64,000 bases of DNA from Planctomycetota bacterium. GTDB lineage: Bacteria > Planctomycetota > UBA1135 > GCA-002686595. The translations under genes and the position numbers were made by a program. The stretch lies in NCBI GenBank assembly GCA_016795245.1, contig JAEUIA010000112.1, positions 1 through 64,000 of the forward strand. The letters run 5' to 3'. The notes beneath the pieces are model-generated. The model was not told where the DNA came from and ran no database searches. It worked only from the letters and a program-made list of their open reading frames with translations. Of the stretch, positions 36,340 through 41,950 are shown in pieces (the stretch's first letter is position 1; each line of letters begins with the position of its first letter).

Positions 36340-36777
36340 ATGAAGATCGCCGACAACACGATCGTGACCTTCGAGTACGAATTGAAGGACAAGGCGGGCC
36401 GCGTGCTCGATTCCTCCAACGACTCGGGCCCGTTGACCTACATCCACGGCGAAGGCCGCATCGTGCCCGGCCTGGAGGCGGCGCTGGTCGGTTACTCGGC
36501 CGGCGATCACCTGAAGATCACGGTCGATCCCGAAGGCGCGTACGGGTACCACGATCCCGAGCGCATCGAATGGCTGCCGAAGACCGCGCTCACGCCCGAC
36601 GGCGTCGTCGAAGTCGGCATGCAATTCCAGTCCGAGACCGACACGGGCTTCGTCGTCGCCACCGTGACGGAAGTCGACGGCGCGAACGCGCGCGTGGACG
36701 CCAACCACCCGCTCGCCGGCGTCGAGTTGCACTTCGAAGTCCGCATCCTGTCGGTGCGCGCGGCTGAGAAACCTTGA
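36340..36777 (+). CDS. SlyD-like FKBP peptidyl-prolyl isomerase
   Basis: A 145-residue cytosolic PPIase/chaperone with the SlyD architecture: FKBP strands (IVTFEYELKDKAGRVLDSS, PLTYIHGEGRIVPGLEAAL) interrupted by the IF chaperone insert (about residues 70-120) and closed by DANHPLAGVELHFEVRIL. It lacks the His/Cys-rich nickel-binding tail of E. coli SlyD. The TGA stop shares its last base with the ATG of the following MlaA-fusion gene, so the two are translationally coupled; that neighbour makes a role in preparing an envelope protein possible. Confidence 0.9.
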   Translation: MKIADNTIVTFEYELKDKAGRVLDSSNDSGPLTYIHGEGRIVPGLEAALVGYSAGDHLKITVDPEGAYGYHDPERIEWLPKTALTPDGVVEVGMQFQSETDTGFVVATVTEVDGANARVDANHPLAGVELHFEVRILSVRAAEKP

Positions 36778-38726
36778 TGCTCCGCCGGCTGCAGCAAGCC
36801 CGCCTCGCGCCCGGCAGGCCTGCGCTCGCGCTGTTCCTTCTGATCGCACCGACCGCGGCCTGCGTCTCCACCGCGCACCAGAGCCGCGACTGGTCGACGT
36901 ACACAGGACCGGGTGCTGAGTACTTCCAGGCCGAGGAAATCGTCTTCCCCTACACCGACGATCCGCTCGAACCCACGAACCGCGTCACCTCCGGCGTGAA
37001 CTACGCCTTGATGCGCTGGGTCGCGGCGCCGGTGATGCAGCTCTATCGCTTCTGGGTTCCCGAACCCGTGCGCAATCATCTGGCAAAGGCCGGCGAAAAC
37101 CTGCTGTTTCCAGGCCGCTTCGTGAACAACTTGCTGCAAGGCAAGCTGAAGGAGAGCGGCATCGAAGCCTCGCGCTTCGCCGTCAACACCACGGTCGGCG
37201 TGCTCGGCCTGTACGACCCGGCCAGCGGGATGGGGTTGCATCCCTACCCGGAGGATTTCGGGCAGACCTTCGCGTGCTGGGGTTGGACGCCGAGCACGTA
37301 CATCGTCTGGCCGATCCTCGGACCGAGCACGCTGCGCGACGGCGTGGGCGAGATTCCCGACTTCGTCGTCGATCCGGCGACGTACGTGTTTCCGGCCGCG
37401 TATGCGCGCGAGTTCAACGCGTTCTCGAACACCATCACCTCGAACTTGCGCGCGATCGAATCCGCGTACGACGCGTACGAGCCGGCGCGCACGCTCTACA
37501 TGCTGCAGCGCGAGGTCGACGTCGAGGACTTCACCTGGCACCAGGACGAGAGCGGTCCGACGCAGACCTTGCGCGTGATCTTCCTGAAACCCGAGAACGA
37601 GCGCTTCGCGGACGACGCCCTGACGCGCAAAGTGCGCATCGCGGGACACCAGCAGGAATTGCGCTACAGCTTGTGGAGGCAACCGCATCCGGCACCTTTG
37701 ATGTACGTCCTGCCGGGATTCGGCGGCCACCGCTTGTCGCCCTCGGCCTTGGCCCTGGCTGAGATCGGTTTCGAACAAGGGCACACGGTCGTCGCGGTGT
37801 CGAGCCCGACGAACTGGGAGTTCATGCGCGCCGGCGCCAGCGTGACGGTGCCCGGGTACGGTCCGGTGGACGCGCACGACATGCACGTCGCCTTGACCGC
37901 GATCGACCGCGACCTGGAGGCGAGTTTCCCCGGGCAGTTCGAGGAGCGACGCCTGACCGGGATCTCGATCGGCGCCTATCAAGCGCTCCTGATCGCAGCC
38001 GATCGCGACCGCGGCGCCGACGGCGAACAGCAGAACGGCCTGATCGCGTTCGACCAGTACGTGGCCCTCAACCCACCCGTCGATCTCGAGTACGGCTTGC
38101 GGAAGTTGGACGACTTCTACAACGGCCCGCTCGTGTATCCGCCCGCGGAGCGCGCGCAGAAGGTCGAGGAGATCTTCGCCAAGGTCTTGTACCTCAGTCA
38201 CGGCGACCTCGCGCCAGGCATCGAGTTGCCGTTCACGGAACTCGAGTCGCGCTTCTTGATCGGCCTCGCGTTCCGCCTCGACTTGCAGTTCATGCTGCTG
38301 CAGTCGCAGGACCTGTTCGATTCGGGTGTCTTGCAGACGCCGCGCTCGCTCCTGCACATGGCGCCGGCCTTTCGCGAGGCGGCCGAGTACTCGTACATGG
38401 AGTACGTGTACGCTTTCCTCTTGCCCTACTACGCCGCGCGCGACCCCGACGTCACGTTCGACGAAGCCGGGGTGCGCACGCTGTTCGAGCGCAGCGATCT
38501 GCACACGGTCGCGGTGGCCCTGCAGAAAAACGACGCGGTGCGCGTGCTCACCAACGAGAACGACTTCCTGTTGCGGCCCGAGGACCTCACCTGGTTGCGC
38601 GCCACCCTCGGCGACCGGCTGCGGCTGTTCGAGGACGGCGGTCACCTCGGAAACCTCTACCGCGAGTACATCCGGTCGGTGATCGGCGAGACGCTGACCG
38701 AGGACGCACCGCCGTCCGCGCAGTAG
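36777..38726 (+). CDS. mlaA: MlaA (VacJ) lipoprotein fused to an alpha/beta-hydrolase-like domain
   Basis: A 649-residue lipoprotein (lipobox PTAAC, Cys near residue 29). Residues ~55-240 are MlaA: DDPLEPTNRVTSGVNYAL, NLLFPGRFVNNLLQGKLK, DFGQTFACWGW and GPSTLRDGVGEIPDFVVDP. MlaA removes mislocalised phospholipids from the outer leaflet of the outer membrane. The C-terminal ~330 residues look like an alpha/beta hydrolase: strand MYVLPGFGGHRLSP, a nucleophile elbow GISIGAY (Ser near 396) and a late His in EDGGHLGNLY (near 622). ATG 36777 overlaps the FKBP stop (TGATG). Ordinary MlaA is about 250 residues. A lipase that acts on the lipids MlaA handles is an attractive inference. Confidence 0.85.
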   Translation: MLRRLQQARLAPGRPALALFLLIAPTAACVSTAHQSRDWSTYTGPGAEYFQAEEIVFPYTDDPLEPTNRVTSGVNYALMRWVAAPVMQLYRFWVPEPVRNHLAKAGENLLFPGRFVNNLLQGKLKESGIEASRFAVNTTVGVLGLYDPASGMGLHPYPEDFGQTFACWGWTPSTYIVWPILGPSTLRDGVGEIPDFVVDPATYVFPAAYAREFNAFSNTITSNLRAIESAYDAYEPARTLYMLQREVDVEDFTWHQDESGPTQTLRVIFLKPENERFADDALTRKVRIAGHQQELRYSLWRQPHPAPLMYVLPGFGGHRLSPSALALAEIGFEQGHTVVAVSSPTNWEFMRAGASVTVPGYGPVDAHDMHVALTAIDRDLEASFPGQFEERRLTGISIGAYQALLIAADRDRGADGEQQNGLIAFDQYVALNPPVDLEYGLRKLDDFYNGPLVYPPAERAQKVEEIFAKVLYLSHGDLAPGIELPFTELESRFLIGLAFRLDLQFMLLQSQDLFDSGVLQTPRSLLHMAPAFREAAEYSYMEYVYAFLLPYYAARDPDVTFDEAGVRTLFERSDLHTVAVALQKNDAVRVLTNENDFLLRPEDLTWLRATLGDRLRLFEDGGHLGNLYREYIRSVIGETLTEDAPPSAQ

Positions 38727-41169: not shown

Positions 41170-41263
41170 CCGGCCCGGACACTAGGCTCAATGGCCCACC
41201 CCGACGCCCAGCGCGGCCGAGGTGCGCGATTTCGACCCCGACCCACCCAGAAAAAGGATCCCC

Positions 41264-41950
41264 ATGTTCCGGCTCTCGCTCGTCACCACGAGCATCGCGG
41301 CGCTCGCCTTGACGGCCGTCGTCGCCCCCGCACCCTTCGGCAAGGACTACACCTCGATCCCGGCCGCCTCGGCCGACATCGAAGCTCAGATCAAGACCGC
41401 CAAGTTCACGCTGGCCCAGGCCGTCGAGGCCGCCGCCAAGGCCGCGGGCGGCAGCGCCAACTCCGCCACGTTGAGCTTCGAGAAGGGCGAGCCCCAGTTC
41501 GAAGTCATGGTCTACGGCGCGACCAAGGCCCAGAAGGTCGTGGTCAGCGGCGAAGGCGTCGTGGGCGCGATGACTGAGATCCCGCGCTTCCCCGGCGACG
41601 CCGTGTCGGGTGCCTGGACCGAGACCGCGAGCGGCCTCAAGTACTTCGACATCAAGGTCGGCACCGGCGCCGCACCCAGCGGTCCGACCGCGGTCGTGAG
41701 CGTGCACTACTCGGGCTGGCTCACCGACGGCACGCAGTTCGACAGCTCGGTCGCGCGCGGCACGCCGGCGGAGTTCCCCCTGAACGGTGTCATCAAGGGC
41801 TGGACCGAAGGTCTGCAGTCGATGCACATCGGCGGCAAGCGCAAGCTCATCATCCCCTACAACCTCGCCTACGGCGAAGGCGGACGTCCGCCGACGATCC
41901 CGGCGCGCGCGACGTTGATCTTCGACGTCGAGCTTCTCGGCTCCAAGTAA
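41264..41950 (+). CDS. Exported FKBP-type PPIase with PepSY-like N-terminal domain
   Basis: A 228-residue exported isomerase. ATG 41264 follows AAAAAGGATCCCC and starts a signal peptide ([19 protein letters not shown]). Residues ~45-105 resemble a PepSY domain ([35 protein letters not shown]). Residues ~110-228 are a complete FKBP domain: [47 protein letters not shown] and [14 protein letters not shown], with the aromatic pocket residues of active enzymes. Location is the periplasm. PepSY domains are usually linked to peptidase inhibition, so the combination is unusual. A terminator hairpin follows. Confidence 0.88.

Follow-up and report, generated by a model that had tools for sequence, protein, structure and literature searches.

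Architecture of the fused lipoprotein gene

The window, by which we mean the whole stretch of 64,000 nucleotides that was analysed, contains an intact open reading frame at 36777..38726 on the forward strand, running from an ATG at 36777 to a stop codon at 38724–38726. It encodes a fused MlaZ–MlaY-type lipoprotein of 649 amino acids. An assembly artefact is ruled out, because about 20 other planctomycete genomes carry the same fused frame, with 26–64% identity. All of the window features described below lie on the same strand. The protein begins with a lipoprotein signal peptide (residues 1–28; 36777..36860), a hydrophobic stretch that ends in PTAA and is followed by the lipobox cysteine. This residue, C29 (36861..36863), is the predicted lipidation site and is invariant in 21 of the 21 aligned fusions, and the protein is probably located in the outer membrane. 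A linker, RDWSTYTGPG (residues 37–46; 36885..36914), connects the lipid anchor to the MlaA domain; in the fusion alignment Y42 is invariant, while D38, W39, G44, P45 and G46 are conserved in at least 90% of the sequences. The corresponding motif, RDWSxYxGPG, is nearly invariant across the fusions and matches no known function.

The MlaA/MlaZ lipid-channel domain (residues 61–246; 36957..37514) is complete and matches PF04333 with an E-value of 8.5e-55 and a score of 185.9 bits, as compared to the curated cut-off of 25. The MlaA profile of the fusion aligns to the solved MlaA chains 5nuo and 8i8r (E-value 8e-31) through the channel and the C-terminal helices.

The remaining ~388 residues (262–649; 37560..38723), which are predicted to include a helical cap, have no Pfam or NCBIfam match of their own in the window protein. 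Their relatives match Abhydrolase_1, Abhydrolase_6 and PGAP1 in Pfam (best E-value 5e-10), and a profile of the fused and free-standing relatives, searched against the PDB, retrieved almost exclusively α/β hydrolases, varied esterases among them (best E-value 1.9e-5). The characterised protein to which the domain can be compared is the periplasmic lipase MlaY; it and the MlaA homologue MlaZ make up a pathway of two proteins in which mislocalised phospholipids are extracted and broken down (Guest et al. 2023, as cited in PMC11131202, PMC11977310 and PMC12569750). In a direct BLASTP comparison, Pseudomonas aeruginosa MlaY and the fused hydrolase share 28% identity over 355 residues (E-value 5e-37). 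As judged by homology, the C-terminal domain is thus an α/β hydrolase of the MlaY family. AlphaFold2 models built from a three-sequence alignment reached a pLDDT of 32 for the whole protein and 37 for the hydrolase domain.

The catalytic triad of MlaY is given as S187, H415 and D388 in PMC11977310, a paper that discusses the pathway. These positions are occupied by S, H and D in the hydrolase of the Pseudomonas gene pair described below, and they align to S397, H623 and D596 of the window protein, in the order nucleophile–acid–histidine. The putative nucleophile S397 (GISIG; 37965..37967), equivalent to MlaY S187, lies within GISIGAY and is conserved in 21 of 21 relatives. One row of this alignment of 21 fusions ends before the acid and the histidine; the predicted catalytic H623 (GGHLGN; 38643..38645), equivalent to H415, lies within EDGGHLGN and is conserved in all 20 sequences that reach it, and the candidate acid D596 (NENDFLL; 38562..38564), equivalent to D388, is an aspartate in 19 of 20 and a glutamate in one. 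The three columns are conserved in the fused, free-standing and split forms of the hydrolase alike, and the fused domain is likely to act as a phospholipase. The initial annotation had recognised an MlaA lipoprotein fused to an α/β hydrolase, with a GISIGAY nucleophile elbow and a late histidine in EDGGHLGN, and on these points it was right; the acid that it left unnamed is D596. On the other hand, it had the hydrolase region begin at residue 320 and span ~330 residues, whereas the region starts at about residue 262 and comprises 388.

Immediately upstream lies a SlyD-like FKBP gene (36340..36777), which matches NF008008 with an E-value of 1.9e-30, below the cut-off of that model, and FKBP_C with an E-value of 2.4e-11. 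Its stop codon and the ATG of the fusion share a single base, the A of TGATG (36775–36779). This overlap had been read as a coupling of the two genes. The overlap is real, but tblastn detected no FKBP beside the fusion at the other loci searched, nor did any gene return consistently in the fusion neighbourhoods examined. We therefore rejected the FKBP gene and the fusion as a conserved unit, and treat their adjacency as incidental and outside the conserved system. Some 2.5 kb further downstream than the fusion, and likewise on the forward strand, an open reading frame of 242 residues (window positions 41222–41950) encodes a second protein that looks, by eye, to be of the FKBP type.

The MlaC-contact region and the distribution of MlaC

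In E. coli, the C-terminal helices of MlaA (Q195–N226) and a tail helix near its end are MlaC binding sites (PMC10719372). By alignment, the fusion retains a helix equivalent to the MlaC-contact helix (37452..37526), in which the canonical AYxQ residues are replaced. In a small sample, A216 and Q219, in E. coli numbering, are conserved in the MlaC-associated MlaAs and replaced in the fusions, and mostly in MlaZ as well; the pattern is suggestive only. The hydrolase starts about 15 residues past the C-terminal helices, and in the alignment the MlaC-recruiting tail is absent from the fusion, with the hydrolase domain in its place. The stand-alone MlaAs of planctomycetes end near this same point, either soon after the C-terminal helices or with a tail that is often acidic. 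Four of them bear long Asp/Glu-rich tails, recalling the acidic tail by which E. coli MlaA recruits MlaC. As the hydrolase takes the place of the MlaC-recruiting tail of canonical MlaA, it probably stands in for MlaC itself, and the removal of lipids would be degradative rather than recycling.

The occurrence of MlaC was followed in one draw of 384 Planctomycetota genomes. MlaC was present in 37 of the 38 genomes having only a stand-alone MlaA, the exception being a genome that is 70% complete, and in none of the 16 genomes having only the fusion. Both genomes carrying the two forms had MlaC, which is kept beside the stand-alone MlaA. Beyond the scan, three further fusion-only genomes lack MlaC, and one further genome with both forms of MlaA has it; the genome of the window likewise gave no match to MlaC (PF05494). 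Fisher's exact test of MlaC against MlaA type gave a p-value of 8e-13, treating the genomes as independent despite their kinship. The same contrast is seen inside families f1 and f47, and because related genomes are not independent, these switches within families constitute a better argument than the p-value.

PldA behaves differently. The phospholipase (PLA1, PF02253) has no match in the window genome and is absent from most fusion genomes, so that the initial proposal of a fusion shared by planctomycetes lacking a separate PldA fits loosely. However, PldA is also rare without the fusion (2 of 25 non-fusion planctomycetes positive), and we rejected its absence as an explanation of the fusion. 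The partner that discriminates fusion genomes from stand-alone genomes is MlaC, not PldA.

MlaE was found in 27 of the 28 genomes tested, and another contig of the window genome (L071, 4246–7005) bears an operon of MlaE, an MlaF-like ABC ATPase and a long MlaD (406 residues), without MlaC. Given the near-universal MlaE, and the MlaF-like ATPase and MlaD of the window genome, some MlaC-independent transport may exist in these genomes.

Origin of the fusion and its split relatives

The fused frame is found in, and persists across, at least seven Planctomycetota families (f1, f5, f27, f35, f47, f60 and f70). In a maximum-likelihood tree of the MlaA domain, all of the fusions fall on one side of a single branch, with support of 74/83 when the long-branched sequence L032 is included and 100/99 when it is left out. 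As all of the fusions share this branch, a single origin is the simplest reading, and the fusion probably arose once. Two genomes of family f27 each carry two fusion paralogues.

In the same tree, MlaZ forms a clade of its own (99/98) and the fusions are weakly nearer to the stand-alone MlaAs of planctomycetes (93/88), while a clade of fusions plus MlaZ is not rejected by the AU test (p = 0.09). In the hydrolase tree, the fused, free-standing and split forms constitute three separate clades. Because the MlaA domain of the fusion groups, if weakly, with stand-alone planctomycete MlaA rather than with MlaZ, a partnership of the MlaZ–MlaY type may have arisen on two occasions.

Within the scan of 384 Planctomycetota genomes, profile A7 detected no split MlaY gene; its strong matches were confined to fusion genomes and to the MlaA-less genomes of family f52. 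The latter, at the seven f52 loci recorded, have 3–6 free-standing secreted MlaY-like hydrolases each (profile A7) and no MlaA. No relatives of the fusion were found on viral contigs.

Outside the Planctomycetota, the distribution was sampled through plasmid records only. A whole-protein search of these retrieved adjoining genes for an ‘alpha/beta fold hydrolase’ and a ‘VacJ family lipoprotein’ in P. aeruginosa and Skermanella, and an unannotated hydrolase–VacJ pair in Fusobacterium vincentii. Guest et al. 2023 gave PA3238–PA3239 the names MlaY and MlaZ, as stated in PMC11131202 and PMC12569750. The Pseudomonas pair from the plasmid search matches PA3238–PA3239, as judged from its sequence, since its gene content fits and the reported triad residues fall exactly on its S, H and D. 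In F. vincentii (L101, 5797–7837), the two open reading frames of the MlaY–MlaZ-type pair overlap by 29 bases and are unannotated in the record. In Skermanella (L099, 1081–12114), a TamB-domain gene directly follows the pair and an RND efflux pair precedes it, a hint that the locus is a lipid-traffic operon.

Proposed route of the lipid and comparison with known systems

We favour, with a probability of roughly 80%, the reading that the fusion is a covalent MlaZ–MlaY, in which lipids from the channel would pass to a tethered hydrolase and not to MlaC. MlaZ has been proposed to take mislocalised outer-leaflet phospholipids to the lipase MlaY, according to papers that discuss the pathway (PMC11131202, PMC11977310, PMC12569750). 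In the fusion, the MlaA channel would deliver such lipids to the hydrolase domain tethered at its periplasmic exit, instead of to a soluble carrier; the hydrolase, which may occupy the docking position of MlaC and take the lipid directly, would then cleave it by means of S397, D596 and H623. Stray outer-leaflet phospholipids would thereby be destroyed in place, and the outer membrane would stay asymmetric without MlaC. We infer both the lipid handoff and this physiological role from sequence comparisons. Extraction and hydrolysis in one step, as suggested in the initial annotation, is well supported in that the hydrolase is a homologue of MlaY with residues that align to its triad. We lean, by a narrow measure, towards the wider proposal that a branch of the Planctomycetota dropped MlaC altogether, and that its only MlaA is a self-contained and purely degradative lipid shredder in which the hydrolase is a covalent replacement of MlaC at the channel exit.

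It is unlikely, yet the strongest of the alternatives, that the hydrolase is an esterase with a different substrate in the envelope, such as a lipoprotein, a wax, a polymer or an environmental ester, and that the main role of the MlaA domain is to anchor it in the outer membrane. The multiplication of free-standing secreted relatives in the MlaA-less family f52 indicates that the hydrolase family is not restricted to MlaA partners, and the varied esterases among the PDB profile matches point the same way. However, the MlaA channel domain is strongly conserved, a constraint that anchoring alone would not call for; the closest characterised relative, MlaY, degrades phospholipids; and the pairing of MlaA with this hydrolase family recurs in three phyla.

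There is also little to recommend the view that the MlaA half is non-functional and that the absence of MlaC reflects a lineage history unconnected with the fusion. It is true that the fusions form one clade and that the co-occurrence p-value ignores phylogeny, but the switch is visible inside f1 and f47, MlaC is kept beside stand-alone MlaA in the genomes with both forms, and the MlaA domain of the fusion retains its invariant residues. Acyltransferases are known among the α/β hydrolases that carry a Ser-Asp-His triad, and the fused domain might accordingly transfer an acyl chain from an extracted phospholipid to another acceptor; this transacylation, also raised at the outset, is very improbable, as no sequence feature points to it and its nearest characterised relative has been described as a lipase.

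For Pseudomonas, the passage of lipids from MlaZ to MlaY has been described as a proposal, and a natural fusion kept across a phylum provides independent ‘Rosetta stone’ evidence that MlaZ and MlaY function as a single unit. It also offers a single protein with which extraction and hydrolysis could be reconstituted, and its structure would reveal the point at which lipids exit the MlaA channel. The mutual exclusion of the fusion and MlaC suggests a choice made by diderm bacteria, which would either recycle mislocalised lipids or destroy them. It bears, finally, on outer-membrane maintenance in planctomycetes, whose envelope is poorly understood and which, where they rely on the fusion, lack MlaC, the usual shuttle returning lipids.

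Among known systems, the β-barrel enzyme PldA (OMPLA, PF02253) would likewise degrade outer-leaflet phospholipids, but it is unrelated to the fusion, which matches only PF04333. The minimal MlaEFD system of Veillonella (PMC10665443) resembles the window genome in having MlaE, an MlaF-like ATPase and a long MlaD but no MlaC; it has no MlaA at all and no lipase fusion in its model, whereas the window genome has the fusion. Canonical MlaA (VacJ) shares with the fusion the MlaA domain, the lipobox and, by alignment to 5nuo and 8i8r, the channel fold, but in the fusion the hydrolase replaces the MlaC-recruiting tail, and fusion-only genomes are without MlaC. We found no description of the planctomycete fusion in the papers on MlaY and MlaZ that were consulted, in which Guest et al. 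(PNAS 2023) is represented here by the papers that cite it. Thus, the initial impression that the protein is not known from the Mla pathway stands for the fusion itself but not for the activity, which these papers (PMC11131202, PMC11977310, PMC12569750) describe for the two-gene MlaYZ of P. aeruginosa. That system is the closest counterpart: it too combines an MlaA-family protein with an α/β-hydrolase lipase having the same Ser-Asp-His positions, and for it too the degradation of mislocalised outer-membrane phospholipids has been proposed. In P. aeruginosa, however, there are two genes, the hydrolase followed by mlaA, alongside a full Mla pathway, whereas the fusion is one polypeptide with MlaA first, usually in genomes without MlaC. 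The fusion is a new fused, MlaC-free form of the already described MlaYZ system.
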